Assembly (NCBI RefSeq): GCF_032854445.1
Contig: NC_088306.1
Span: 16,337,764 to 16,401,763, forward strand
Length of the DNA: 64,000 nucleotides
Reading direction: 5' to 3'
Source: Liolophura sinensis
Lineage: Eukaryota > Mollusca > Polyplacophora > Chitonida > Chitonidae
In this document: one piece after another, positions 10,601-61,734 of the stretch
How positions within the stretch are numbered: the first letter of the stretch is position 1
Layout of the letters: every line of letters begins with the position of its first letter
Position numbers and translations under genes: made by a program
The notes under the pieces: model-generated
Database searches by the model: none
What the model was told of the DNA's origin: nothing
The model's input: the letters and a program-made list of their open reading frames with translations, nothing else

Positions 10601-12685
10601 TAGTCCTCTCATCCTGATTGTTTACAGCCGAACCTTTGCCGCCATTGAAACCAAGGCAGTTACAGAACAGTATTTATGTTGCGGGTAACAATATCTCCGT
10701 GGTGGTCAAGTGGAAAACCCCACATTCAGATGCTTCCATTGACCGCTTCAGGGTGACCTGGGGGATCATAGGCCAGAGGTCAGGGGTCAGCGACCGATCT
10801 CACAGCAGGAAGAAAGACTTGTCAGAGATGGACAAGAAAACAGTGAAAACCATGAACCTGCCCGGGGTAAGAGGATAGATTTTATTGTGTCAGGTTTAAT
10901 AGATGTATTCTGTTCTTCTTTTTAAACAGTTGAAAACAGTACTGTGTCCTGTATTTGAACCAGCAATTCACCTGGAAAAATTAAGTTTTAGCGATAAAAT
11001 AAAAGTGCAAAAACATTTACACTTTGGTTTAAATTTTGCTACTTTTATCACAGAAAATATAGTTAATGTTCAACTGTGGAACAAATCAAACTTAGTTTGT
11101 ACTTTCTCTAAAACACACTGTGTTTATCTGATTGGTGTTGAACACAGTACTCTAGAATTTTCCACTTATTCGATGACGATCAGCTCTGTGGGTGCAGGAA
11201 AACGGAGTTCCCAAGTTTACTGCTTACCTTTGGCAGTTTACTGACAAACTCTGCCACATGTGATATGAAGACATGGTGGAAGACATCAGTGGACTTGAGG
11301 CTACACAAATGGCTACATGAGTGTCATTGATCATGACATCATTGTCATGAAGGCCTCACAAGCAGTGAGAAAATTGGCATCCAAAACTACTGACCAAGGC
11401 TGGATTTGAACCTTCACCTTACATACCCAAGCTATTCAATGACAAGCATGTTTAGCCACTCGACTATGGTCACCACACTTTCTGTAGATTTCTATATTGT
11501 GTCCTCTACTTAATACTGACATCAAAAAATGAAATGTGTGTTTTTGTGACTGTTCATGTGGACGCAGGATGCACACCGTGCCGTGCTGGAAACGCTCGCT
11601 CCATACTCCGAGTATGCCGTGGAAGTGGCCGCTGTGTCTAAGGCTGGTCAAGGGTCATCAGCCAGACTGGAGTTCAGCACCCCAGCTCTGCCCACTCTCA
11701 CTACCAGGGGCTATGGTAAGTCTTGAGAACTGAGTGATGATATGAGGACATCAGAATGCTGTACTTCCCTGCCTGATGTGATTTGTGAACAAACTTTTGT
11801 TGAGGTTTTTAAATTGCAAAGGTTTTTGAACTGCAAGGGTTTCTAAATTACAAAGGTTTCTGAACTGCAGTGGTTTAAAAATTGGAAAGATTTTTGAATT
11901 GCAAAGGTTTTTGAACTACGAATGAATGTCAGGAATAAATTTTCATACAATTTGCATGATATAACATGAAAACACTCCTGATCTAACACCGGCTGGCCCA
12001 ACAGTTTTTTTGATGGAAGACAATTTTCCTACAAGATTATTTTGTCCTTGGGCACAACAGGGATAAGTCGTAAAATAGCAGAAATTGGTTAATCATAAGT
12101 ACACTAATTTGTCTCTCTCTTTTTAATATTGGAAAGTTGAAGTATTTGACTTGTATATGGATTGTTGAAATATTTGTTGACAAGAGTTATGTCCCTTCTT
12201 CTTATGCCGTTTTTCATGTTGAATGAATACCAGTGTAATACAGCACATTTGCAGATTGTAAGAGCGAGGGTTCGTAATTTGGGTCTGTTTGTCTGTTTGT
12301 CTGTCGTTGTTTTGCATTCAATAAACTTGTGTGTGCCGATGCATTTTGGGAACGCTTGAATCAAGTTTAAAAACAAGCCTGCATATTGATCATGGGAAGT
12401 AATTGGTCATTCTCAAAGTTTATTTTCTCGTCCTCAGGCGATCGTCACGGTAAGCCAGCTGACCAGCCTCAGGAGAGTGACATGCACAGGACAGTTGTAG
12501 AATCTCATCACTCAGACAATCAGGCCTTGGAGAAGTCCTCCACAGCGACAACGGCAGCTTTCTCATCTCCTTCCTCCTCCTCATCGTCTACCTCATCTCT
12601 CTTCTCCCGCCATTCTTTGACTGACTCAATCAATGCACTGATCTGCGTGACGGTTGCCCTGGTAATTGCTGCCAACCTGCACTAG
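1418..12685 (+). CDS. ANOS1: Anosmin-1 (Kallmann syndrome 1 protein) orthologue, 13 exons, 5' incomplete
   Basis: Exons: 1418-1634, 2628-2824, 3548-3677, 4755-4882, 5541-5618, 6354-6410, 8248-8344, 8830-8961, 9303-9415, 10030-10201, 10628-10866, 11568-11715, 12438-12685. All introns are GT/AG and the phases join into one 651-residue frame ending in TAG. In order: the last two Cys of a Cys-rich box (6, 10), an eight-Cys WAP domain (about 18-66), four FNIII repeats (about 75-181, 183-301, 303-425, 441-565) and a Ser-rich tail. Anosmin-1 is an extracellular-matrix, heparan-sulfate-binding protein acting in axon and neuron migration and FGF signalling; WAP plus four FNIII in this order is its diagnostic layout. 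The segments CxxxCxFLK and ATGFEAAC before and in the WAP, and WYQFRVAAV in FNIII-1, match the vertebrate protein as I recall it. Sequons (NGT, NLT, NRT, NVS, NIS) fit secretion. The signal peptide and N-terminal Cys box are not found. Unusual: a hydrophobic C-terminus and an RGD in FNIII-3. Confidence 0.93.
2156..2300 (-). repeat. SINE A, 5'-truncated
   Basis: Carries the family's tail and body (TTTATTTATTTATTCGATTG, then the ccgtactcaagaatatttca and ccagcattgtggtgggagga blocks) in reverse orientation. The tRNA-like head is missing. Confidence 0.85.
2628..2824 (+). CDS. ANOS1: ANOS1 exon, FNIII-1 first half
   Basis: Acceptor tttcag, donor CAG/GTAAGC. Phase 1 in, phase 0 out. Encodes the A-C strand half of FNIII-1, including the core Trp of the B strand (IVNWHGAK) and the VIYVLQYRH strand that matches the IYVVQRR strand of vertebrate anosmin-1. 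Confidence 0.92.
3055..3292 (+). repeat. SINE B, tRNA-derived
   Basis: The head (3058-3130) is tRNA-like: A-box-like tagcacagctgg, an anticodon-arm-like ccgc-ttcggga-gcgg with CGG in the loop (proline-type), and B-box-like gggtcaatccta. The body continues through gaggaagttttaacttcctc and tagtgcaacgactggttgacc. The acceptor stem does not pair, so it is not a tRNA gene. Related copies are at 19627-19985, 28880-29180 and 44022-44385. Confidence 0.8.
3548..3677 (+). CDS. ANOS1: ANOS1 exon, FNIII-1 second half
   Basis: Acceptor tttcag, donor G/GTCAGT. Encodes the second half of FNIII-1 with the typical WYQFRVAAV F strand and an NGT glycosylation sequon. Confidence 0.92.
4000..4490. repeat. Minisatellite, about 20 bp, in an ANOS1 intron
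   Basis: Imperfect repeats around gttcctctgttacacctttg fill this intron segment. Long open frames here arise only from the repeat. Confidence 0.9.
4755..4882 (+). CDS. ANOS1: ANOS1 exon, FNIII-2 start
   Basis: Acceptor ttgcag, donor AAG/GTACCG. Encodes PSPPRNLT and the B-strand MSW of FNIII-2. Phase 1 in, phase 0 out. Confidence 0.9.
5541..5618 (+). CDS. ANOS1: ANOS1 exon, FNIII-2 middle
   Basis: Acceptor attatcag, donor GCT/GTAAGT, 26 codons in phase 0. LYWSQRLR corresponds to the FWSW segment of vertebrate FNIII-2. The Lys/Arg-rich heparin-binding stretch of the vertebrate protein is shorter here. Confidence 0.88.
5965..6234 (+). repeat. SINE A, near full length
   Basis: tRNA-like head with B-box-like gtgagttcaactctgg, conserved body (cagaaacctgcataaggttg, cctcccaccataatgctg), and the aaaacaccaatcaaataaat tail with repeated AAAT. 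Lies in an ANOS1 intron. Confidence 0.88.
6354..6410 (+). CDS. ANOS1: ANOS1 exon, FNIII-2 short exon
   Basis: A 57-nt phase-0 exon (acceptor tcaacag, donor CAG/GTAAGG) encoding the E-F strands of FNIII-2, with an NRT sequon and the LNSDTTYFIQ F strand. Confidence 0.88.
6411..8247. other. ANOS1 intron, 1.8 kb
   Basis: AT-rich intron. The only clear structure is the inverted repeat at 6726-6836. No exon or RNA gene was seen. Confidence 0.6.
6726..6836. repeat. Imperfect inverted repeat (hairpin)
   Basis: gctgatggtcggctcatgg (6726-6744) is nearly complementary to ccatcagccgaccatcag (about 6819-6836). Between them are further gccgaccat-like words, giving an ~110-bp fold-back in an ANOS1 intron. 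Confidence 0.6.
8248..8344 (+). CDS. ANOS1: ANOS1 exon, end of FNIII-2
   Basis: Acceptor tttcag, donor G/GTAAAT. Begins VEAIARQG, continuing the F-G strands of FNIII-2 (vertebrate VELQAITYWG). Phase 0 in, phase 1 out. Confidence 0.9.
8830..8961 (+). CDS. ANOS1: ANOS1 exon, FNIII-3 start
   Basis: Acceptor ttcccag, donor G/GTAAGT, phase 1 at both ends. Encodes the FNIII-3 A-B strands with the CLVTWEV core and an NVS sequon. Confidence 0.9.
9303..9415 (+). CDS. ANOS1: ANOS1 exon, FNIII-3 middle, contains RGD
   Basis: Acceptor tttacag, donor CAT/GTAAGT. Encodes the C strand (KYMITWKPV) followed by CGFRGDEK; the RGD codons are at 9362-9370. Confidence 0.9.
9684..9924 (-). repeat. SINE A, near full length
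   Basis: Tail ttttatttatttgattggtg at the left, conserved body, and remnants of the tRNA-like head ending in cagaggcctcc at the right. Lies in an ANOS1 intron. Confidence 0.85.
10030..10201 (+). CDS. ANOS1: ANOS1 exon, FNIII-3 end and linker
   Basis: Acceptor tttttag, donor G/GTAATG. Encodes the FNIII-3 F-G strands (CHYVVNIRVVN) and a Cys-containing linker to FNIII-4. Confidence 0.9.
10628..10866 (+). CDS. ANOS1: ANOS1 exon, FNIII-4 first half
   Basis: Acceptor tttacag, donor GGG/GTAAGA. Encodes LPPLKPRQL, the VVVKWKTP B strand and the FRVTWG C strand, then a basic loop (SRKKD) that could bind heparan sulfate (inference). Confidence 0.92.
11120..11215 (-). repeat. SINE A, diverged fragment
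   Basis: Diverged match to the tail/body (ctgattggtgtt, then a degenerate actctagaattttccactta segment). Confidence 0.5.
11568..11715 (+). CDS. ANOS1: ANOS1 exon, FNIII-4 second half
   Basis: Acceptor gacgcag, donor G/GTAAGT. Encodes LAPYSEYAVEVAAVSKAG, a classic FNIII F-G region. Phase 0 in, phase 1 out. Confidence 0.92.
11810..11925. repeat. Short imperfect minisatellite (~19 bp)
   Basis: About six imperfect copies of a unit like gcaaaggtttttgaactg in the last ANOS1 intron. Confidence 0.75.
12438..12685 (+). CDS. ANOS1: ANOS1 terminal exon: His/Ser-rich tail and hydrophobic C-terminus
   Basis: Acceptor cctcag; stop TAG at 12683-12685. The 82-residue tail has scattered His, a run of Ser/Thr (about residues 611-624 of the visible protein) and ends in the hydrophobic segment INALICVTVALVIAANLH with no basic residue after it. 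This looks like a GPI-attachment signal. Confidence 0.9.
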
Positions 12686-24218: not shown

Positions 24219-24341
24219 TTAGAAAAAATAGTTTGCTGGCCCTATCACACTGGTCTGGAAGAGTAGTAATATAATGAAACAAGTGATAACCACGACCGAG
24301 ATTAAATATGACGGGAGAATTGGAATGTGGAACAACTTGGC
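24219..24341 (-). CDS. GRL-like exon 10: TM7 and stop
   Basis: 40 codons plus TAA after a long polypyrimidine tract and cag. Encodes AKLFHIP and TM7 (ISVVVITCFIILLLFQ), with a short C-tail. A TTTATT on the + strand at 23985 could be the polyadenylation signal of this gene. Confidence 0.8.
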   Translation of the reverse strand, partial: AKLFHIPILPSYLISVVVITCFIILLLFQTSVIGPANYFF

Positions 24342-27300
24342 CTGAAAAAAAAAAAAAAAACAGCAAGAGTTAAAGACATTATTTGATTTCCTGCTTGAAT
24401 GATGCACAAAAACAAAGGAAATAAATAAAGACTTATAATTTGTAACTGCAAATGTCCATCAGAAAAAGCTGCTTCTCCTTTCCTTTTAAGACACTTTTAA
24501 CATCTGTATTTTCTTAAAAACTTGAATCCTTGAATTACCTAGAGCACCAAGAATACAAAGTCTTCAGTAAGACTAGACTAAGACTTTAACCCCTGACCTG
24601 CTGATTATGAGGCAAACATTCTACCACTCAGCCATCAGAAGTGACAAGTTACAAGTGATTGACTGGAATATTAAGTTCAGACTCATTTATCTTATAATAG
24701 AAGCGTAAAAAGTTACATACCCGCAGACTATTATTGGATACGAAGAGCACAAAAGAGTCAAGGTCAAGTTGTGAATTGTTTTTATAACCAAACACTCTCG
24801 CCTCCAGCGCTAACTTTTTAAAACGACGACATATAGAATTTGTTCTGGCTGCCTGTTTAGAACAGAAAATCAAATTTAAATCAAGTTTATATTTAAAAAA
24901 TGCAGATTTAAATACAGGCTATTGATCACATAATCAACTTATTTCAGCAAAAAAAAAAAACGCGAATTAGACTTTCACATTTGTCCTGCCAATAGCAGTC
25001 ATTTCAGCAATGGCAATTATTTTCAGCAATGGCAATCACTTCAGCGTAAGTTAAAAGCAATCATTTCAGCAAAGAAAATTTCCATAATGTAATGTAAATA
25101 ATACAATTACACAAATATAAGGACATTCTAAAAAAAGTCAGATAATGGCTTACCTGTATAAGTGGGAAGAAAAGAATGAGCATCCAGACCACGGGGAAGA
25201 TACCCCGAAACACCCACACCTTATACGAGTCATTCTCGTTAAGAATCAGAATACTGATACCTGGCCAAATTGACAAGAAAATATCCACTGCTTACAACAT
25301 GCAGTGAGGCCGCCACCTATAAATGTTCAGCCCTAGGTGGCCATATCTCACAGGTTAAGTAGCTATGATTCTCGATACAAGAGCATGTTTTTCAGGTATG
25401 TTATAAAGATACAATGATCACCTTGGTTTTATCACCTAATACACCTGACAAACAAATCCCTGGTTAAATGTGAAACAGATAACTGTTTGTTTAATATTAT
25501 ACCTATATGTACCTATGTATGCTCTATACTACATTTGTATAGCTACATGTGAGATTAGAGTATCGCAGCCTCTTTAACAGGGTATATGTTCGTACCAGTA
25601 ATTATAAATTAATTACTTTGTATATTAACACAAGTAGTCTATTACAAATTATTATTTGGCGAAATAAATAAAATCAAATGAGATGTTAAAGCTATACCTT
25701 CCAGAAGAGCATTACACTTTGATAAAGACAGAAGATAAACATGCCACTAATACAGTATCATGCAGAAATGCTGAGTAAGCGTAAATCTGACCGACTCACC
25801 TATGACTGTTAACTCTGCAAATATAACGGTCACTAACGAGGTCATCCTGGCAATCGGGCCATTTAGCTGGCTCAGGTTCTGACGCAGTCGGAAAATCTCC
25901 TACGAATATAAAATCCATTCTTACATCTAAAAAATTGTATGTATGTACTTATTTGATTGGTGTTTTACGCTGTACTCAAGACTATTTCACTTATACGCCG
26001 CCGGCCTATGTTATGGTGGGAGGAAAGTGGCCTCTGGGAAATGTTTAGGTACGTTCCAAATCATGTAAACCTACATGGAAATGTGAACCAGTAAGGTCTG
26101 CCTTTATCCCATATTTCACAGCCGTTCTTTCTAACAATTTTAATAATCAAATTAACTGTAGTTATTTATTTAGTTGGTGTTGAAAATTGCAATGATGCTG
26201 AACGAACAATGAAAACATTCCATTAATTTTTCATGGAATAAGACGTAAAGAACATTTTAATCATGAAATGTTTACATTATTCATCATTCTAGACATGTTT
26301 ATAGAAGAAAATTCTAAGCTTAAATAGTTTATTTTATCTTTTATCAGATTTACCTTCATGGCATTACGCAGATCTACTGACTTCTCCTAGGGCCGTGTGG
26401 TTATGCCCTTGATGTGGAAGGCAAACAGACTTACCTTCATGGCATTATGAAGGTTTACCCACTTCTCCTAGAGACGTGGGGTCATGCCCTTGACGTAAAA
26501 GACAAACAGACTTACCTTCATGGCATTACGCAGGTCTATTGACTTCTCCTGGAGCCTCGTGGTCATGCCCTTGACATAGAAGATGATCATTTCACACTGC
26601 GTCACATAGTTTATCACCACGGCCAAGTTCACAGAGTTCAGTACAAGTATTCCAAGCATCTCAATTCCGAAAAACACCCAGCGGTACTTCTCACTGAAAC
26701 CCAACAAACTGTAAGCCTTTATTATACTGGCTGGACTCATAATGTGGCCTCATAATGTGACCTCACTTATAATGTGGCCTCATGATGTGACCTCACTCAT
26801 GATGTGGCCTCATAATGTGGACTCATAATGTGGACTCATAATGTGGGCCTCATATTAATAAACTCCAAGCATACATACATTAGTAATGTGGCCTGAAAAT
26901 ATTTATTTATTTATTTATCCGACTGATGTTTTACGCCGTACTCAAGAATATTTGACTCATATGACTGCAACCAGCAATACGGTGGAAGGAAAACGAGCAG
27001 AGCCCAGGAGAAACCCACGACCATTCAAAGGTTGCTGACAGACCTTCCCACGTACGGCCGGGGAGGAAGCCAGCATGAGCTAGACTTGAACTCACAGTGA
27101 CCGCATTGGTGACAGGCTCCTTGCTATCTATGATGACATATGCTAATAATACCGGTAATGGACTTCTGATGATGACTTACCCTATCTTCTTGAAGAAAGT
27201 GAGCTGAGGAAAGTTGAATGCCCAGATGTAGAGACCCTGAAGCCCCAGGGTGAGGACGATCCAGAACAAGCCGCAGATGAGGAAAAACCTGGGTAGGGCA

Positions 27301-30300
27301 CATACCACAAAACATAATGATGATTGACACATGAAGCCCATCCTCCTTACACAATTGTATGTGTGTTTATTTCCTACTGTATTATATTTTGAGAAGAGCC
27401 AAAATGAAGAGAGTATTCTCAACACTGACTTTATACAGACCCTGTTCTTTTTTTATTTTACAAAAATTCTAAAAAAAACCCACACAAAAATGCAAAAATG
27501 AAATATATAACTGCAACATAAAAATATATCAATAACGAGAAAATTCAGTACTTGTGTGCATTGTTTGGTTACAAATACAGCTAATTTAGAATGTTCAATG
27601 TATATGAATCGTAAATACAATGTAGTAACACAAATACAATGTAGTAACACAAATACAAAGACACAGAAAGTAAATTTTAAATAACTATGAATTTTATTAT
27701 CTTCACATCTGTAATCAAACAGAGCTACATATCTGAGCAGAGTTACATGTACATACCTGAGCCAAGCTATATACATGTACCTGAGCAGAGCTATATACAT
27801 GTACCTGAGCAGAGCTACACAAATGTACCTGAGCAGAGCTACACACATGTACCTGAGCAGAGTTACATACATGTACCTGAGCACAGTTACACACATGTAC
27901 CTGAGCAGAGTTACATACATGTACCTGAGCAGAGCTACACACATGTACCTGAGCAGAGTTACATACATGTACCTGAGCAGAACTACACATATGTACCTGA
28001 GCAGAGCTACACACATGTACCTGAGCAGAGTTACATACATGTACCTGAGCAGAGCTACACACATGTACCTGAGCAGAGTTACATGCATGTACCTGAGCAT
28101 AGCTAGACACCTAGCAGAGTTATGTACCTGAGCTTTCTGATCACCTTTTTCTGGGAGGCCACTCGTCCTTGTAAAGGTGTGGCTTGTAAAAATACCTGAG
28201 AACAAAAAGGAAAATAACAACTACCGTCAATCAGAGGTAGATGCTTTTTAAATTGCACTCCACATCCACACAGGATGTGAATAATAAGCCGTCAGTGAGT
28301 TGAGAATTATTGTGATGTTTACAGATGAATGAAATGAGCAGAGCAGAGTAGTCTCCCTTTAATGCATATACATAACCTACAGGTTAACTTGATTGTTTGT
28401 TATGATTCCACATAAGAGCTGGTAAATGGCTCAGTGGTAAGCTACATAACTACGAACAGCTGGGTGTGGGGTCAATCCCAATTTTCGAGAGGCAAGTTCT
28501 AGACTGTCCCAAAGTCAATATTTTTGGGCCCTTGGTGACAAAATCAGTTCAAAGCACTGATTTGGCTCAATCTTACATTCACTGAAGACAATTTGTCTAA
28601 TACACAAAAATCACCCCGTTTGCAAAATTTGCTAGTGGTTAGCATGCCAATGACCCAGGAGACCCTCACCAATGTGGTTGCTGTGGGTTCGTCCAGTTCA
28701 TACTGGCCTCCTCTCCAGTCATACACGGAAGGTCTGCAGCAAACTGTTTCCCCTGAGCTCTGCACATTTTCCTCCTACCATAATGCTGGCCATCATCATA
28801 TAAGTGAAATATTCTCTAGTACGGCGTAGAACTCCAATCAATAAAATAAATAAAGAAACATTTTATGTACAGCAATTAGCAATATGAGTGAATGAGTGAG
28901 TGCTTAGGGTTTAACGTCGTACTTCACAATTTTTCAGTCATATGATGATGAAAGAGTTCTTAGAGTGCATGTAATGTGCCTCCTTGTGCCTCCTTGCAGG
29001 ACGGATTTTCACCGCTCTTTTATCTAGTACTGCTCCACTGAGATGACCAACAGATGCTGAACACCACACGAGGAAGTTAAAACGTCCTCTTTTAAAGTCT
29101 TTGGTGTGACCCGACCCAGGATTGACCCTGGATCTACTGTTCCCGAAGCAGACACTCTACCAACTGAGCTATCGGTGGCTGTCAAAAGTACCAACATGAA
29201 CTTTCACTGAAACAAAAGACAGTTTACCTTTTCCATAATGGCGTAAAGCTGTTCATTCTCCTGTATCCTGAAGTAATAGAAGCCGAGGATAAACGCCAGA
29301 AGGTGAAGAGCATTGGGTATGCCGTACGTGGTGATGATGTGTTCGCACGCTGCCTCACCATCTGTTGATGGTGTGACATTCTGAGGCACGGTGAATGCTG
29401 GGAAGAACGTAAACGGTGCGATCGGAGTTGTCACATTGGATGACGAGTTTGGCGCCAGAGTGGTGGAGGGAGTTGTTACAATTTCCGCAGGAATTACCTG
29501 TAAAAGAATTCTTTGTAACATTAGTGGGGTTAAAGGTAAGAACTCTTTCATTCATTTATTTATTTGATTGGTGTTTTACAGCGTACACAAGAATATTTTA
29601 CTTATACAATGGTGGCCAGCAGAGCCTGGGGAAACCTCAAGTGGCAGGAGGACCTTCCCACAAAAAGCCTGAGAGAAACCAGCATGAGCTGGACTTGAAC
29701 TCCCAATGACCGCATTGATGACAGGCTCCTGGGTTCTTGCACTGGGCTGGCATACTGACCTGAACATTTTAATGCATGATTGGTTGGAAATAAAATGTTA
29801 TCTATACATTATAAGATATTAATATAGGACTGGTTTCAATGTGTGATTTAAAAAAAAATGTAACACTTATCTACTTATCTCACAGTTGTTTAATGTCAAA
29901 TTTTTCACTTACAAGATGGTGGTCAATATGGGTGGAGGAAACTGGAAACCCTGAGAAAAACCACTGACCTTTGGCAAGTTAATGTCAAACTTTCCCGTAA
30001 GTAGGAAATTTAATAATTTAATTTTATAGGGCACAAAATGGCAACATAAGCATTGACCATTTATCCTAGCCTAGGTTCCATACGCAGTGACAGTGGGGGA
30101 ATATACAATGACATTTGAAAGTTCTGTTGCCTAGATACAAGGTTTAATTTAGAAGTTCAACCTGTGGATGGCCGTGTGTTCCCCCCAGGCCTTGCCCGGT
30201 TTCCTCCTACTATAATGGTGACTGCCGTTATATGAGCGAAGTATCCTTAGGTACGGCATAAAACATCAATCAAATAAAATAAATAATTTAGTTATAATGC

Positions 30301-33300
30301 TTTGGTGCAAGGTAAAAGACTTGGGTTTCCTAGACATGTTAAGTGTACATCAGCACTAGAACAATACACACTGGGTACACACAACACCTGTCAGCCACTT
30401 ACCTGGGTGTCCCTCTTGACGTCCAGAGTCCACTGACAGGCCACTACCTCATACATGTAAGTCTACATCATCACTAGTACAATACACACTGGGTACACAC
30501 AACGCCTGTCAGCCACTTACCTGGGTGTCCCTCTTGACATCCAGTTTCCAATGACAGGCCACTATCTCATACATGTAAGTCTACATCAGCACTAGTACAA
30601 TACACACTGGGTACACACAACACCTGTCAGCCACTTACCTGGGTGTCCCTCTTGATGTCCAGTTACCACTGAGAGGCCACTATCTCAAAGATGTAAGTCT
30701 ACAGCAGCACTAGTACAATACACACTGGGTACACACAACACCTATCAGCCACTTACCTGGGTGTCCCTCTTGACATCCAGTTTCCACTGACAGGTCACTA
30801 TCTCACATTTGTAAGTGTACATCAGCACTAGTACGATACACACTGGGTACACACAATGCCAGTCAGCCGCTTACCTGGGTGTCCCTCTTGATGTCCAGTT
30901 TCCACTGACAGGCCACTATCTCATAGATGTAAGTCTACATCAGCACTAGAACAATACACACTGTGTACACAAAACACCTGTCAGCCACTTACCTGGGTGT
31001 CCCTCTTGACATCCAGTTTCCACTGACAGGCCACTATCTCATAGATGTAAGTGTACATCAGCACTACAACAATACACACTGGGTACACAGTATTCAACAC
31101 CTGTCTGCCGCAGCTACCTGCATTAATCGACTCCTTCCCAAAACCTCGCCATCCAATCTGAAATCAGCACAGAAGAAGAAATACTGAACTATTTGGAGAG
31201 AAATATTCATCATTTAATCTGAACTACTGTAATTCCTCAACCTTTTCGCATCAGAAAGGGCAACTTTCAATTTGATTTATGCAAACTTTAAATTTAATTT
31301 TAGAGGCAAAACTGCACTGGTAGGGTTGACAGGGATATATAACTGTGTCAGTCTATACAGCATAATGCCCACAGAATATGCTTGAATAAACGTCTGGAAA
31401 ACAATTGATAAGGTTGAAGAAATATCTATAAATATTTTTTCTCGTTGATATCGCTTTGAAGTATGCGATATTCAGGTTCATCATATGTGCATGGGATTCT
31501 TATTACACCTACTAGCTAATATATGTATATAATATTTTTATTTTTTTAAATATTAACACCATACATAATACACATTATGAAAAAACTCATTTGGATTCCA
31601 TGTCTAGATAATTATAATAAATAAACATGTGATATACAGGGTGGAGCAAAAGTCTGGACCTATAGGCAATTGTGGTTTATGTTAACAAACCAAGAACATT
31701 ACAAGCACTAAAAGATAACATCACACAAGAAATTGAAACCATAAGGGGAAATAACAATATGCTTCGAAATGTGCAAAGATCATGTGTCTCCCGAGTAAGA
31801 AAGTGTTTGGAGGAAGGTGGATGTCAGTTCGAACACTTATTGTAAACTGTAAATTGTTATATAATAAATTGTCTATGGGTCCAGATTTTTGCTCCACCCT
31901 GTATATTGTATACTATATATCCTTTACACTCAATTTTTCTGGCTGTAGCAGTGAAGCAAGTTTTATGCATCCTGTACCTGTAACTCTGAGATATGTCTAC
32001 TGTAATTCTTCAACCTTTTCACATATTTGTAAGGTGTTTATTCAGGCATATGCTCAAGGCGTTATTCTGTGTTGACTAATAAAATCATACTTTTTGAGAA
32101 GCTCTGAGATTGGTCAAACCAATCAATGCTGTCCCCATCATTGTATGCGTGTATCAGTATGCGTACATGGGAAGGTCTTCCAGCAACCTGCGGATGATTC
32201 GTGAGTTTCCCCCAGGCTCTGTCCGGTTTCCTCCCACCATAATGTTGGCCATGGTCGTATAAGTGAATTATTCTTGAGTACGGGGTAAAACACCAATGAA
32301 ATAAACCAGTAAAAATGTATCAGTATGTACATGTAGGTATATATACTTGGGGTTTAGTACTGTACTTATTGTACTTAATTTTTGTAGCCATGTGACAAGA
32401 AGGAGTCATAATGTGTGTGTACATGTGTACTGTGTGCTCTTGTGGCAGGGGGTGTCCATGCCGCCAATGTGCAGATGCCCACCGAAGCATCACTCCAAAG
32501 ACACCAGTTACTTGACACCCCTTCTCAAACCGCCACCAACAATATGAAGGTATTACTCACAGATTCCCATGTTACTAAGTAGGCCTACAAAAATCTCAAG
32601 TCTTTTCATGACAAATCATGTTATAATATGTCTGCCTTTTAAACAAAATATGAAATTACCTGCAGCTACATCATTTGTGGTATGCTATCATCATACGTCT
32701 AATGTATTACTGCATAAAAGGACGTGTATATATAGATTAATCGCTCCTGTACCATTGAACCGATAAGCGTGTCACTTACAGATCATGACTGGTGGTTGTA
32801 CTGAGTGGAAGTTCCATTTTAATACAGCTGTTTAATCTTATTGTCTCTTCTAAAAAACCTTAGTAACCAAATACTTGACATTCCAGCAGTATTGAATGAT
32901 GCCTGTTTTTAACGATTCTCAGGTGATTAGACCTTATTCCCACAAACATATTTACTGATTGCTAAAAGCATCTTCTCTTGAAGAGCAAAGAAATCTGATC
33001 AGGGTACCTCTGGTATCCATGGCAACCATCAATCCTCGAGCCAGAACGGCTCAATGCATCAGGTAGGCCAAAAACGTGACAGCTCCCTCACGTTTCCAGA
33101 TAGCTAGGGATTTGATAACACCAAAAATTTAATTCTTAGCTGCAATCATAGGAGACTTGAAAAAAACATGTTGTTACCAGCTGTATTGATATCTTGTCCA
33201 AAAGGAAAAAAAATATAATGTAGGTGTGGCTGGAAGAAAACAGCCAAGTCCTTTGACATTTAACATTTAAATCTAATGTCAAAATGTCCTTCTTACGTAG

Positions 33301-46224: not shown

Positions 46225-46420
46225 AGCTGATAATTTACCCGTAGCATGTTTACTGGTGAACTTTCCCACCTGTGATTTACTGGTGAACTTTCCCACCTGT
46301 GATTTACTGGTGAACTTACTCACCTGTGATTTACTGAACTTTCACACCTGTGATTTTCTGGTGAACTTTCCCATCTGTGATTTACTGGTGAACTTCCTCA
46401 CCTGTGATTGACTGTATTTC
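46225..46420. repeat. ~27-bp minisatellite
   Basis: About seven copies of ttactggtgaactttcccac + ctgtgat. Confidence 0.9.
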
Positions 46421-46479
46421 ACCTGAAGTTTGGTACATGTATGCAAAAATGCAAATATGTAAAAACATATAAATTTCAC

Positions 46480-51390: not shown

Positions 51391-52714
51391 TGATTGAAGG
51401 AGATTTTCTCCTGTAAAAATGCAATCATGTCTTATCAAGTACTTCATTAGGTTAATGAAACTGAGTATGGTAAGAAGGAAATCACAATTAAAGGATCAGT
51501 GTCCAGATTTAGCTACTTGTCCTAAGTACAAAGTTTATAACCTGTATGTTACAGTATGCTACCAGGAGGGCCTCCGAAAACCCTAATAATGACTTTAAAT
51601 CCACCAAAAACAATAAATTTACTACCCTAGCCAATCGCCAGCCAGCTGTCAGGTGAAGCTCAGAGGGTGACGTCATGGATGGTCAAGCAGAGAGTAACTG
51701 GATTATATAACCTGGGAATTCGTATCAAAACGATATCATTTTCTAGATGGATTCTTACTACAAAGAAACAAATATACTGCCATATCAATTTTAACCCATA
51801 GTGGATGACGCTGAAATCCTGATTAATGACACTGACATCTCTGGCCAGACTTCAGATTCAGACGCTGAATTTAATATTTGTCCAGGCATTTTCAACCACA
51901 CTATCAATACAGATTGGTAAACTATAGCTTTATCCTGTGTTACTTTGTAGGTTTACATTTCGTGTGTATGTCAGATTTAACATTTACTATTCTTTTCTTC
52001 TCTATGCTTCACAATAAATATCATTTTATTTCCCAGAGTGGGTTCACTTAAAAAAATGGACATGCAGGAATTAATTTTCGTGCATTTAATCAAGGCAATA
52101 TTGAAAAAAAATTTCTTTTTTCACTGTTTAATTTTCCTAGTTATATTATGGCCGCAATTACTTAAGCACACACTGCACAAACAGCTACTGTGAAGAGCGG
52201 CTTTAATCCCTCCTAATCCCTATAATCCGGATCAGAGGTTAAAACAATGGGGGATGGATTATCACTGTGAAAGAGTGCTTCCCAACTAACCTGAGCAGTA
52301 CTCAAAGAGATGTCACTTCCCATCTACCCTGAGCAGCATTCAAAGAGATGTCACTTGTTTCTGCACCTTTGACGAGTAATTTTAATCAACAATCAGTATT
52401 TCAACCCCAGTCATTAATTCTTGATTAACACAGTTAAGCAACACGATTAGTTTTGGATTGTTTTCTGTTTTAATCGTCCTCTGTAGCCCAGTCAGAAACC
52501 GCTAGCATTTGCCCAGCTGTCAAACGGCCATTCCCTTGCTGTATGCAGTTCACAATTTGTTAGAAGCTCCTTGGTACACAGGAGAGACACAGCAGCGACA
52601 TTCATTGGAAGCCATCACTTGGTTGTATTTACTTTTCTTTCACTTTACCAGCATACCTCAGATTGATCCAACTAATGACGAATGAACTTGCGCTTTGTTT
52701 TACACCCACCCAGT

Positions 52715-52995
52715 CTTATCACCAGAGGTTATATACATGTATTTAAAGCCTAATTTGTCCTTCATGCTGTTAAATTTTAGCTGCCCACCAGGATTCCTTA
52801 TCCCATCTCCTGCCAACCCGGCAAAGATTTGGCTGTGTTTGGAGGGTATAAAACCCTTCCATCTTGTGCCGTGAATCCACACTTTCCTGAGGGCCAAATC
52901 CTCTGAAAACTTGAGAAAACTAACTCCAGGGTTCTTTGACGACCTCTTTTTACAACCGTGAGCAGAACAGCAAACTATTTTGTGGAAAAAATTTG
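52715..52995 (-). pseudogene. Degenerate THAP zinc-finger (C2CH) exon or transposon relic
   Basis: The minus frame reads CCSAHGCKKRSSKNPGVSF, LKFSEDLALRKVWIH and FIPSKHSQIF. This matches the N-terminal half of a THAP domain (CxxxC pair, GVSFxKF, W, FxPSxHS). The second zinc pair (C-x2-H-F) is missing, reading IFAGLAG instead. It is most likely a decayed THAP-family or THAP-containing transposon fragment. An intact gene whose exon ends near HSQI is the alternative. Confidence 0.6.
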
Positions 52996-53770
52996 ATATG
53001 CTAATTGTCACTTGTGTGGCTTTTTAACACTACAGTAAATGGCAAAGCTCTGACGTACGGCTTGTAGAGGTTGGACTTGCATGACGTCATTAAGCTGCGA
53101 CTACTGAGTTTTAGCCGAAAAATGCATAAACCCAGCCATCACATACAGCTATTACCTAGTGATTTTAATGCCATATTACTCTGATTATTGTAGTTTTTTT
53201 CCAATATGTTTTTACACACAATTTAACAATATACACAGGGGTAGGTAATTATGAATAAATAACCAATACAGCCACTAATCCTTTAATGTTTTTTTTTTTT
53301 TTTTTTGGCTCAATCATTTCTTGAATGTATCTTTGGTTGCTTAAGCTGCTTTCTGTTTGTTTCTATGCTTATTAAAATACACCATAATACTGTATATGTA
53401 AACAAAAATGCTTATATAAGTTACACTTTTCCACCCACAGGCCCACTGTGTACATGTCCATAATAGAGCTCTGCCGGCATTTGAAGCCCTTGCTGCATGC
53501 AAGAAGGCCTAACACACGGCCTGGAGTGGTTGACCCTTGTTGTCTTACCAAGGCTTCGTAGTGAACTGTGCTCATGTTCTGATCCATTGTTCTCTGTAAT
53601 TCTTGGATTTCCAGCAAGTTGTCTAGCCATTGGGTAGATAGTTGTTTTGACAACCTCTAAAGAGCAGCATGATTATTATCTTCGAAACAACACGTTTCTG
53701 ACGACGATGATGTGTTACCTCCCCCTGGTTTAGAATGTTGCCGCTTGGCATCGATAGTAACGGTCTTCTG

Positions 53771-57100: not shown

Positions 57101-60100
57101 TAGATGAGTTGACAACTGTGCCTGTAAGTAGCTAAATCATTGTGCTTTGTGATGCGCAAATACCATGAGATAAGTTTAACTGTTAGAGTTTACTAGCTAG
57201 ACTGAAAATAGAATATAGAGGGATTAATCTGGTAATATTCTGTGTGATAAGATCGAGAAATAGTGATAAAAAGAAGCTGTAGGCTAAAGCTAAGCATACA
57301 TACAGTTAAACTTTAGCGGTACAGCCCTCTTTTTGCAGCATGAATGGACGTAGCTTTCCCCTATACTCTGCTTGCTTTCCTGACACCCTGATGCTGGCTA
57401 CCATCGTATACGGGCAATATTTTTGAGTACATCGTAAAATGCAAGTCAAATAAAATTGCAGTTAACTTTCATTTTGCTTTTAGAGGTATACCTTGTGTGC
57501 CTTTGTCTACAAGCAATTTCGTACCACCTGGCGACATGACAGTTTCCTAGTTCCTTCTCCCCATAAACATGAAATAATCATGAGTACAAAATGATCCTCC
57601 AGTGAAATGAATTGTGACCAAGTGCCAAGAATGAAGAACTTTTAAAACTCCTTCCTGCTTGTATCAAGACTGTCCAAAGCTGGAACTCATTTGTTGTTTC
57701 CTTTCTTACGGGGCATTTATCAGTGTATGTGCGCTCATAAAACCTGCGTGAAGTACACATGCACTGCAACATCACAGAAGGAAACAATGTGTTTAGTTGT
57801 CATTTTGGACTCACTGTGTAGCTCGTCTTCGAGTCTTCGATTCAAATTGTACTTGAGATTTTTACATGTATGTGCTTATGTTTTTCCGTCACAGCCATGG
57901 CTACTGTAACTGACACTCATATATGTTCTGTTTCCGCAGCCTGGTGTAGATGACGTAGACAAGGAAAACTTGTCTGACCCTGTTCAGGTGTCCATGTATG
58001 CCTTTGACATATTCCAGTACTACAAGGAAAGAGAGGTAGGTAATTTAGACTAATTTCAACAACTGTTGACAGAACTAACATTGCTAATGAAATCTTGCAT
58101 GGAGCGAAATTACTTTTAACCATTAAAACTTTTATTATAAATTTCTTTTATTCCCACAAATAGTTTTACATTTCACTATATGAAAAACCATTTTGTTCAT
58201 GCAGAAGAAGTTTGCCATCCGACCTTACCTGATCCGTCAGCCTCAGTTGTCATCCAACATGCGGGCGATCTTGGTGGACTGGCTAGTGGAGGTACAGGAG
58301 AACTTCGAGCTGAACCACGAGACGCTCTACCTGGCAGTTAAGCTTGTCGACATGTACCTGGCCAAAGTGGTCATCCCTAAGGAACAGCTTCAGCTTGTGG
58401 GAGCCTCAGCTCTCTTCATAGCAAGCAAGTTTGATGTGAGTACTCATTCTGTGCGTGTCGTTAACAATGTCATTTTACAGAAAACTTTTTATGCTGATCA
58501 TGGTTACAGTACACTGGTACAATATGTACTTAATGGCCCTACCCCAATTCCTCAACCTTTTCGCACATAAAAGAGCAGCTTTATGCACAATTTTAATTTG
58601 ATTTTGTAGACAAAACTACATTGGTTGGGTTGTCCAGTTTCAGGGCTTCACAAAAAGTATAATTATTTCAGTCTACACAGGATAATGCCTGCAGAAAATA
58701 CTTTAGAATGAACATCTTTGAAACATGCAAAAAGGTTGAAGAATTGCAGTATTCTGTACAGATGATTATTAATGCCAGACAGGCTGCTCCTGAAGTATTT
58801 TGTGTCCATTGTTTTAATACATTGGTACAGTTTGTACTTTCCCTCCCCATTGTGTACAAGTGGTTGATAGACGCCAGACAGCTTGTTACAACAGTGTTCA
58901 GACATTCGCCAATATGTAACCTTGGCTTGGAAGACAAAGTCTGCTGAAACTGCGCACCACAAACTGTTTCTGTCTCAAACGGAGTCTGAAAACTGACTTT
59001 TGACAATGCATAATAATAGGGTTAGCTACAAGGAGTGGGGGCTGGGAGTGATGGTGTTTCAATGTCGTTGGGACAAACTAAATATTACACTGAAGGGAAG
59101 TCATAAGTATGATTATGATTGGGCCTGACAAATCCCTGGCAGCAGGACCTTGACGCCATGTTATTGACGTCAAACATTTTTTTTTTCTGATCGTCGTGAT
59201 GTTGTAATACACTAAAGGAAGTACTTCCTTAAAGTAGAAACTGGTTAATTGTAGCATTGCACATGTTGTGCAACAATCATTTTAAACTTCAGAATTATTT
59301 ATAATCACTTTAAGCTTTCTTGTTTTAAAAAAATACATGAAACGCTTGGTTATTTCTTACTACAGAGTATATGGGGGTGACCTATCGTATAAAAGTATAA
59401 AAAAGCATTTCTGATTTCTTCCTGGGACCAGAACATTGGCTTTAAACTACAGCAATGGTTTCCACAAGGCCCCAAGTGGGCCCACAACAGTTAGTTTGGA
59501 AATTAAGTGGCATGCTTTACTGATGTCAGTGATCATAGCTTTGACCTCGAATTTAGGTGGTCCCGCGTTCACAGTATGTTCATCAATTTCCAAATATTTC
59601 TGACCATAGCCAGAAAGTATGCTTCTAGAATGAAGAAAAAAAATTTTTTTTTTTCATATTTTTCTGAAAACCATACTTTTTATTTTATACCTTTTCACGT
59701 ATTATTCAGCATACATGTAGAAATTTGTGCAGATATCAGTATCAAACTGAAGTACGTGTAAGTTGACAACAATGGCATTATTGCAAGCAGTCTTTCTGGA
59801 TGAGATTCAGAATAACAGTTGACTTTTTCAAACTTTTCCATTACACTTTAGGAATTTGTTACAATTAAATTATTTTATAACTGTGGATGTTTTTTTTTTT
59901 TTTTTTTTTTTTTTGTTGTTGTTTTGTTTTTTTTCGTCTCTTGCAATTTAGTTTTGACTCATCTTGTTGTCAAATAAACATGATAAACCAACATTTCTCC
60001 ATGACTCAGGATAAGAAAAGGTGCGCGAGAGGCTTTCGCTTATGTGCGTGTCCCTGACCCATGGCTCAGTTGTCCCAGCTTAGGCTGTCTATAAGTGACT

Positions 60101-61677
60101 AGACTATGCATGGCCTTGGTGATGTTGTCATCAGCCAGGTGCAAGCTTCTCTATCAATGCACTGTTTAGTTGACCAGTGATTAGCCATGCGTCACTGTTT
60201 CTGAAGGAGCTTATATCATGAATCAGTGCCACCGTTTTAGGAAAAGCTCGACAGTTCACATCTGGAATTGGTGTCAGAGTTTTCTAAAACTTTTCAGGAA
60301 CGCACCCTAGCTATATTGCAGGAATGAGAGGACAGCTGATATACTTTGCCCTTTGTCTTTACAAGAATCAATAATCAAGTCACTTGTGTTTGGGTAAACC
60401 GTAAACTACTGTAATTGTCCCTTTCCATAAGTATTTATGCCTTCTGCTAATGCTAAAATTTAAAAAAGAGGGGGAAAAAACCCCCATAAAAAACATGATT
60501 CTTTCAAATGTTACAGTTATCAAATCTTACCCATATACAACTTTTAGGTGATAAACTAAATGAAGGTTATGATTTAAATGGCTTAAGTGTTTTAAAAAGT
60601 ACAATTCTTTTGGCTGCCTATACATGTACAGTTTATGTGTATTTGGATGAGAAAAAAAAGAGAGAAACAATTTAAATCCAATTTGGCAAGATATGAGTAA
60701 TAAGGAAAGTTTCTCAGTCTGCACACACATGTATGTACATGTGTTAGCTTCTTGGGGGACATTATGCATGGTTAGCCTGCAGCGTTCTAGTTGAGAGACA
60801 AAAAAGGGTTGGTGGAAAGTTGTCATAGAGATGTAACAGCTTTTTAAAATAGCTGTGGCATCAATCTGAAAATATTGTATTAAAAATAAAAATGCATGGA
60901 TTCTGCGGCATAGTTGTGACGTGCTTGATATGCAGTTATAAAATGTTGCGTGTGTCTTGGAGAATGATTTGCTAATGCAGGCATTGGTATGAGTCACCTG
61001 TTTAACAGATGCAGTGTGTGGTTTTTGATATGAGAAATAAAAGATCAAAATGATTGCTGATTTCTTGGGGAGATTAATCCAAATTAATACGAATTTTGTG
61101 GGTGATCCAAATGAATACAAGTCGGAGTGGGGGGGCAAAATGAATTCAGAATGTGGCGAGGGGGGGGGGGGGTAAAATGAATTCAGATTGTGGCGGGGTG
61201 GGATACGGGGTATTGATTCAAATGAATACAGATTTTTGGGGGTGATCCAAATGAATACAGATATGAAGGGGTTATGCAGATGAATACAAATATAGGAGGG
61301 CAGCCCAGGTGAATACAGATTTGGGGGGTGGGGGTGATCCAAATGAATTCAGATTGTTTGGGGGGGGTGCAAATGAATGCAGATTTTTGAGGGGGGAGGT
61401 GACTTGAGAAGAAGGTATGAATGTCTGCAAGCTAGGATTTCATGAGGTGAATCGTGTATTTATGTATAGGTCAGAAAAAGTTGCTAGAGGATTGGTAATT
61501 GTTATTGTACTTTGCCCACAGGAACGCTGTCCCCCTCTGATTGAAGATTTTCTCTACATCTGTGATGATGCCTATAACAGGAAGCAGTTCATCGAGATGG
61601 AACAGCTGGTGTTAAGGGCTGTCGACTTTGATTTGGGCATTCCTTTGTCCTACCGCTTCCTCAGACGCTACGCCAAG
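54106..61677 (+). CDS. ccnb3: Cyclin B3, first seven coding exons, 3' incomplete
   Basis: Exons: 54106-54174, 55444-55548, 56449-56705, 57072-57123, 57940-58035, 58205-58435, 61522-61677. All GT/AG, with phases joining into one 322-residue frame from ATG 54106. Cyclin B3 activates CDK1 (and CDK2) for mitotic/meiotic progression, acts in the nucleus, and is destroyed by the APC/C. Visible: destruction box RPAFGDLTN (50-58), the RxxF form typical of cyclin B3; a basic and Ser-rich linker (59-143); KEN (169-171) within DVDKENLSDP; the family signature DIFQYYKERE; and the cyclin box from about 194 with MRAILVDWLVEV (212-223), QENFELNHETLYLAVKLVD and ERCPPLIEDFLYICDDAY. The last ~80-100 residues (end of cyclin fold and C-lobe) must lie beyond the window. 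I chose the first ATG because it opens the frame directly before a good donor and precedes the N-terminal basic region. Confidence 0.95.
54252..54410 (+). repeat. SINE A, in ccnb3 intron 1
   Basis: Body from atgggaaggtcttgcaccaa to tail aatcaaaaataaataaa, followed by an acaacaacaacaac stretch. Confidence 0.85.
54925..55140. repeat. Dispersed repeat / possible MITE (family 2)
   Basis: Second copy of the 34255-34475 family (gctagactgaatgtacatct, acacagctaaaag). gagtcccgcgagtttacgca at the left end. Confidence 0.5.
55444..55548 (+). CDS. ccnb3: ccnb3 exon 2: destruction box
   Basis: 35 codons, phase 0 (acceptor tttgcag, donor AAT/GTGAGA). Ends with RPAFGDLTN. Confidence 0.92.
56449..56705 (+). 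CDS. ccnb3: ccnb3 exon 3: disordered linker
   Basis: 257 nt (acceptor cttgaag, donor GG/GTAAGT). Lys-rich then Ser-rich (ILSSQDSLSSLSSQGSNKSD), likely disordered and phosphorylated. Confidence 0.92.
57072..57123 (+). CDS. ccnb3: ccnb3 exon 4: acidic linker
   Basis: 52 nt (acceptor ttcctag, donor CCT/GTAAGT) encoding AEEESMETDLDELTTVP. Confidence 0.88.
57338..57455 (+). repeat. SINE A, degraded 3' part
   Basis: tgatgctggctaccatcgta and gagtacatcgtaaaatgcaa with a short aagtcaaataaaa tail. Confidence 0.65.
57940..58035 (+). CDS. ccnb3: ccnb3 exon 5: KEN motif and start of cyclin region
   Basis: 32 codons, phase 0 (acceptor tccgcag, donor GAG/GTAGGT). Contains DVDKENLSDP and MYAFDIFQYYKERE, diagnostic of cyclin B3. 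Confidence 0.94.
58205..58435 (+). CDS. ccnb3: ccnb3 exon 6: cyclin box core
   Basis: 77 codons, phase 0 (acceptor catgcag, donor GAT/GTGAGT). MRAIL helix and CDK-binding cyclin fold, ending ALFIASKFD. Confidence 0.96.
58546..58752. mobile_element. MITE (family 1), complete copy
   Basis: Inverted ends aattcctcaaccttttcgca and tgcaaaaaggttgaagaatt. The interior matches 31226-31424 (tttgatttt, agtctacacaggataatgcc). Confidence 0.78.
61070..61402. repeat. G-rich ~30-bp tandem repeat
   Basis: About ten imperfect units of ggtgatccaaatgaatacag followed by a G-run (up to 11-12 G). The long proline-rich open frame on the opposite strand is an artefact of this repeat. Confidence 0.85.
61522..61677 (+). 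CDS. ccnb3: ccnb3 exon 7: cyclin box end
   Basis: 52 codons, phase 0 (acceptor cccacag, donor AAG/GTAAAC). ERCPPLIEDFLYICDDAY through YRFLRRYAK, continuing directly from exon 6. Confidence 0.95.
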
Positions 61678-61734
61678 GTAAACTAAATATGGGGATTCCC
61701 CTGCTCCCACTTAGTAAAGCCACCTATATGTATT

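Follow-up and report, generated by a model that had tools for sequence, protein, structure and literature searches.

Introduction

Tandem repeats across exon-intron boundaries have been reported in lancelet globin genes, where they were called mirages after earlier work on Adh3 (PMC3087553), and further examples were described in troponin C and PGBD5 (PMC3902484). As described there, the mirages of Adh3, the globins BflGb6 and BflGb9, troponin C and PGBD5 are minisatellite-like, have units of 10-160 bp and occur at either exon end (PMC3087553, PMC3902484). AG/GT is present in many, not all, of the units, the number of repeats differs between two haplotypes, and the data suggest that regular splicing is not disturbed (PMC3087553). 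In this study, three arrays of such kind were analyzed in a single gene for a seven-transmembrane-like (7TM-like) protein of Liolophura sinensis. The gene lies on the minus strand of a stretch of 64,000 nucleotides (GCF_032854445.1, contig NC_088306.1, positions 16,337,764 to 16,401,763), which is hereafter called the window and to which all gene coordinates refer. The arrays are very probably mirages as well, i.e., neutral tandem duplications over exon ends in an array-rich neighbourhood, tolerated since the first donor works. A preliminary description of the window had known of no named system like this, which was wrong, as lancelet arrays of such kind bear a name (PMC3087553, PMC3902484).

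Several other systems are also comparable. Human F7 has several 37-bp repeats at intron 7, the first of which contains the donor, and splicing normally employs no 5' splice site but the most upstream one; when this first donor is mutated, a downstream cryptic intronic donor is activated (PMC6627357). Variable tandem repeats at exon-intron boundaries in human segmental duplications may create new introns (PMC2812944). Intron gain via tandem genomic duplication of AGGT segments has been reported with in vivo support (PMC3443670), and dual-specific AGGT splice sites were described in tandem repeats (UBC, VCX3A), including polyubiquitin (PMC10809524).

Results

The preliminary description had claimed arrays after exons 3, 5 and 7 that include each exon's own donor. 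Repeat calls and alignment confirmed them at these places, and the claimed units and copies were borne out (118 bp with five extra donors, 24 bp with 15 and 81 bp with two). A slash marks the exon-intron junction in the motifs below.

30334-30992, minus strand: 118-bp array in intron 3; five full copies and one partial copy, with five extra donors CAG/GTAAGT or GTAAGC
27733-28127, minus strand: 24-bp array in intron 5; the true donor, then 14 CAG/GTACAT and one CAG/GTATGT
26345-26515, minus strand: 81-bp array in intron 7; two extra copies, each with CAG changed to TAG in the coding frame

Exon 3 ends in CCCAG/GTAAGT, with the first intron base of the true donor at 30992, and the extra donors follow at 30874, 30756, 30638, 30520 and 30402, spaced by exactly 118 bp, one of them being GTAAGC. 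More than the boundary alone was copied here, as the homology spans a whole period within the exon (31117-30993, 125 nt). This unit is flanked by CAGGTA on both sides, one being internal at 31117 and the other being the true donor. The call of Tandem Repeats Finder (TRF) ended inside exon 3 and the full exonic unit was recovered by alignment; in the stretch beyond the TRF edge, 25 of the 34 aligned bases were identical, which was reached by none of 200 shuffles. Out of 118 aligned sites, each copy shares 105-110 with the exon. Intron 3 itself spans 30992-29498; its length of 1,495 nt is no multiple of 118, and the array stops at about 30334.

The other two arrays are built differently, so that the three differ in unit, in the amount of exon held and in divergence. 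At exon 5 the first intron base of the true donor is 28127, and 15 extra CAG/GTA donors lie between 28092 and 27756, at steps of 24 bp except for the first step, which is 35 bp. The 24-bp unit has only GCTCAG (6 exonic nt) in common with exon 5, and no break-point evidence was found at this array. Exon 7 ends in ATGAAG/GTAAGT (donor AAG/GTAAGT), and its two extra donors are 81 bp apart, at 26434 and 26353. Here the unit comprises 74 exonic and 7 intronic nt (GTAAGTC), and the copies are identical to the exon at 58 and 60 of 74 sites. The word TGAT occurs at both break points, at the exonic start (TGATCATC) and in the intron past the last copy (TGATAAAA). Short words common to both break points are the trace left by microhomology-mediated or slippage tandem duplication, and such an origin is therefore probable where they occur. 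Of the slippage anchored at junctions that had been proposed earlier, duplication at short repeats thus fits exons 3 (CAGGTA) and 7 (TGAT); the anchoring itself was not supported (see below).

In comparison with the lancelet mirages, the repeats likewise span the boundary at exons 3, 5 and 7 (at exon 5 by 6 exonic nt), and the units keep the splice signals, giving 5, 15 and 2 extra donors. Across the 609-Mb genome, boundary copies were found at acceptors (L030, L034) as well as donors (L037, L046, L056, L044), whereas the 7TM-like gene has them at donors only. The differences from the lancelet cases are that three arrays lie in one gene of this genome and that they are known here from sequence alone.

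Gene model and reading frame

The nine joined exons of the 7TM-like gene give a single open frame of 416 residues plus stop, and all eight introns are GT-AG. The model comprises exons 3-11. The exons, all supported by splice sites and the open frame, are as follows.

30993-31157, minus strand: exon 3; first hydrophobic segment, one complete repeat unit at 30993-31117 (also supported by unit alignment)
29228-29497, minus strand: exon 4; ends without junction copy
28128-28195, minus strand: exon 5; end GCTCAG/GTACAT common to the 24-bp unit
27181-27288, minus strand: exon 6; ends without junction copy
26516-26693, minus strand: exon 7; last 74 nt belong to the 81-bp unit
25800-25899, minus strand: exon 8; ends without junction copy
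25154-25260, minus strand: exon 9; ends without junction copy
24721-24852, minus strand: exon 10; ends without junction copy
24219-24341, minus strand: exon 11; holds the stop codon, acceptor without junction copy

The predicted product has seven hydrophobic segments by hydropathy, the first one in exon 3. The protein had no Pfam match up to E 1, and an AlphaFold model made from one sequence only had a predicted local distance difference test (pLDDT) score of 42.6, too poor for fold comparison; the name GRL used in the preliminary description was not confirmed. Paralogues were sought in the 609-Mb genome as a reference for the exon ends and none was found, as all 15 protein matches fell inside the gene itself. 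The earlier statement that other exons lack such arrays was tested within this gene and proved right, since none of the remaining five donors and nine acceptors carries a junction copy.

When the frame of exon 3, 5 or 7 is read beyond the true donor, a stop is met after 9, 22 or 45 nt, respectively, in all three cases before the first extra donor, and any extra donor would therefore yield a truncated frame. The idea that the copies serve as alternative donors for the protein was accordingly not borne out, every extra donor reading into a stop. At exon 5, splicing from an alternative donor after 28145 would break the frame into exon 6, and the first donor of the array is thus the frame-fitting one; the most upstream donor fits the frame in each array. 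Donor scores, based on approximate consensus frequencies as weights, ranged from 7.1 to 8.7 for the extra donors of exon 3 against 8.7 for the true one, which is equalled by four of the five. The corresponding scores were 2.1-5.9 against 2.1 at exon 5, and 8.7 and 5.1 against 8.7 at exon 7. The true donor is marked by position and frame, not by strength.

Placement of arrays and donor motifs

Tandem arrays make up 12.7% of the window and 22.96% of the span of the 7TM-like gene. When the six arrays of the gene were placed uniformly at random, at least three of the eight donors were covered in 21.8% of 20,000 runs, a lenient null because arrays were allowed onto exons. At the gene's own array density of 23%, the chance of at least three of eight donors is P = 0.27. 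The arrays by far exceed chance as repeats, but in their placement on donors they do not clearly do so.

Genome-wide, the donor motif CAGGTAAGT occurs 9,837 times and the reversed control motif 4,862 times. Among the first 100 listed places per motif, to which the clustering test applies, clustered loci within 300 bp were 8 of 51 for CAGGTAAGT and 7 of 60 for the control (P = 0.59), and within 600 bp 6 of 47 and 7 of 57 (P = 1.0). On contig C1, a close pair of the donor motif was found at 14 loci and a close pair of the control at nine. One long 36-bp array (G000 C1:93392582-93394859) contains dozens of perfect CAGGTAAGT, and no exon was seen at its start by eye. Per occurrence, the donor motif and the nonsense motif have about the same likelihood of being within a tandem array. 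In the window itself, a 27-bp array with CAGGTGAG-type donor motifs was also noticed on the minus strand at 46249-46422, with no adjoining coding exon by eye.

Junctions of dynein genes

Exons of dynein heavy chains were collected regardless of repeats with PF12774 and PF08393, which are dynein families, from 17 + 17 regions at 17 loci; the paired regions of a locus were treated as parts of a single gene since they lie next to each other. Two of 90 PF12774 rows and five of 86 PF08393 rows, from spread-out or isolated exons, were unused. Among 135 neighbouring exon pairs, 110 introns (61 + 49) were resolved by frame and profile continuity, with the same splice-site weights as above; 15 pairs (6 + 9) had no frame-consistent junction and 10 were skipped for profile-gap or distance limits. 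Myosin head exons, with introns too long, were kept out of the sample.

Junction-copying arrays follow five of the 110 donors (L037:1905, L037:1112, L046:387, L056:1849 and L044:2542), three of them strict cases and two (L037:1112, L044:2542) diverged ones included after visual inspection, and precede two of the 110 acceptors (L030:3221, L034:5893). L056 is a small replica of the exon 7 case, with 40 exonic and 18 intronic nt and one extra copy. Decay of the copies is also seen: some at L046 are without GT (AAAGAAAGT, AAAATAAGT), and two at L037 are altered before it (CAA, CCG).

In a 40-base test, 7 of 110 donors were positive as compared with 51 of 880 random intron positions (Fisher P = 0.83), and so were 3 of 110 acceptors against the same background (P = 0.26). 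The positives include L029:2100, L034:4395 and L054:4263, where the junction itself is uncopied, and the background leaves aside four low-complexity positions, being 55 of 880 when these are included. Since donors and acceptors are like random intron positions, this sample, within its limits, shows no attraction of arrays to junctions and no clear avoidance of them. The junction anchoring suggested earlier was thus not supported, and the enrichment check that had been proposed for donor-overlapping arrays, made with the dynein sample and the motif counts, found donors no richer in arrays than random intron positions.

The density of arrays varies strongly between genes, as their share of the sequence fetched is 35% and 32% at the dynein loci L034/L056 and L042/L054 and nil at five of the 17 loci. 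Six of the dynein cases are concentrated in three of the 17 loci (P = 0.017). Array-rich loci tend to carry junction copies (P = 0.024), a result that is partly circular because the coverage includes the mirage arrays themselves and because the locus of L044 was counted as without.

Further cases on contig C1

Eighteen loci with repeated CAGGTAAGT were inspected on contig C1 (14 from pairs, four from clusters). Exon anchoring was backed by homology at three of them: L017 (RNA polymerase III subunit RPC1, E 1.6e-8), L019 (glycosyl hydrolase 31, GH31, E 2.1e-13) and L026 (EGF-like, E 2.5e-5). By eye, a coding-like open frame ends at the first donor-like site in L010, L020, L022 and L024; L012, L014 and L023 are uncertain, and anchoring was not seen in eight of the 18. 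The L020 peptide, presumably DERA-like in look, gave no match in the homology search. Such arrays are therefore not limited to the 7TM-like gene, as might have been concluded from the preliminary description: the absence stood for the other exon ends of this gene and failed elsewhere in the genome, given four of 17 dynein loci (one by eye) and the three homology-backed cases. Boundary-copying arrays, which is new, are not rare in this 609-Mb genome.

At L019 1735-1835 (GH31) and L026 1650-1760 (EGF-like; both on the motif strand), the unit lengths of 39 and 48 bp are divisible by three. No stop interrupts the frame up to 60 nt beyond the first CAGGTAAGT, so that later donors could add peptide repeats, unlike in the 7TM-like gene.

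Discussion

The most plausible history of the three arrays begins with small tandem duplications that would by chance have spanned exon ends. They could have been produced by slippage or microhomology-mediated repair, with which CAGGTA at exon 3 and TGAT at exon 7 are consistent. If the spliceosome picks the donor lying furthest upstream, which is how a review of coagulation factors describes intron 7 of human F7 (PMC6627357), the duplicate would be removed with the intron and would escape counter-selection. It could then collect changes and expand by slippage or unequal exchange like other intronic minisatellites. That three arrays are found in one gene is probably due to the array richness of the stretch, which resembles a minority of the sampled loci. 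F7 is a single, clinically studied case (PMC6627357), whereas in the 7TM-like gene the use of the first donor is deduced from the reading frame only.

Several observations weigh against this explanation. The array of exon 3 ends in a partial unit, implying a history of more than one step, for which one simple duplication is insufficient. Three donors and no acceptor carry copies in the 7TM-like gene, and at the sampled donor rates of 3.6-6.4% the chance of at least three of eight donors in one gene is small (P 0.002-0.012); local array richness is thus needed. The concentration of the dynein cases, which would speak for such richness, falls to P = 0.057 (seven cases in four of 17 loci) when L044, accepted by eye, is counted. 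Clustering of the donor motif within 150 bp, again in the first 100 listed places, was 13 of 60 against 7 of 68 (P = 0.09). The genome-wide raw pair matches were 386 for the donor motif and 228 for the control; as one array can give dozens of pairs, these counts were not taken as enrichment and the loci on C1 were counted instead. Finally, donor sites are less variable than other sites among the intronic copies of the three arrays pooled (1/27 vs 45/196, P = 0.020). This is due mainly to the 24-bp array (exon 5, 0/9 vs 8/15, P = 0.0095; exon 3, P = 0.68; exon 7, P = 0.35), in which units of two types alternate and the sites are therefore not independent.

The last observation bears on the possibility that the arrays are functional, the repeated 5' splice sites binding U1 as decoys or as a reservoir, slowing or tuning splicing, or making stop-containing transcripts for decay. 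The decoys of exon 3 that match the score of the true donor (8.7) in four of five cases, and the stop to which each extra donor leads, as needed for unproductive splicing, would agree with it, as would the cryptic donor switched on by the F7 mutation (PMC6627357). However, donors are not enriched for arrays, copies decay at L046 and L037, and the lancelet mirages reportedly seem to leave splicing undisturbed (PMC3087553). A functional role of the arrays is accordingly judged improbable, and the data give no support to a system that is functional or anchored at junctions. Slightly less credit still is given to a combination in which about 3% of exon boundaries (7 of the 220 sampled) are self-copied and some donor arrays, such as the 24-bp one with its 15 identical CAG/GTACAT, are kept as splice-kinetic or decoy devices. 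Judged from the sequence, one or another array may affect splicing as a decoy or through its rate.

It is very unlikely that the arrays represent a step of intron gain or boundary shift through tandem duplication of an exonic AGGT segment. Within exon 3 the unit has a match over its full length, and an exonic AGGT segment was tandemly duplicated there; CAGGTA flanks it on either side, at 31117 and in the true donor, in line with the published model (PMC3443670). However, intron 3 continues beyond the array to exon 4 at 29497, and the duplicate is at most a candidate new intron. For the same reason the likeness to UBC and VCX3A, where repeat units are also bounded by AGGT, is incomplete, as the intron length there is a multiple of the unit (PMC10809524) whereas intron 3 leaves the array. 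The human variable internal tandem repeats are likewise boundary minisatellites changing gene structure, described in recently duplicated genes (PMC2812944), whereas the 7TM-like gene is single-copy. An assembly artefact is hardly conceivable, as the copies within the arrays differ from one another, and so are not one sequence repeated by the assembler, and similar arrays occur at other, unlinked exons.

Neutral mirages thus being the preferred explanation, boundary-copying arrays, known in the open-licence literature from lancelets and human F7, recur here at about the rate of arrays at random intron positions. They lend themselves to testing the rule that, among several equal donors, the first one is chosen, and they are material, plain to see, from which introns and exons can change; no new system is revealed.

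Other features of the window

On the plus strand, two exons at 58184-58567 and 61408-61683 match the cyclin N-terminal domain (PF00134). At 1397-1711 and 10618-10875, also on the plus strand, a WAP domain is accompanied on the same strand by a fibronectin III match under the Pfam cut-off, a pair which we take to be an anosmin-like arrangement. A THAP domain match at 52703-53023 on the minus strand was slightly under the Pfam cut-off (22.2 vs 23.9 bits).

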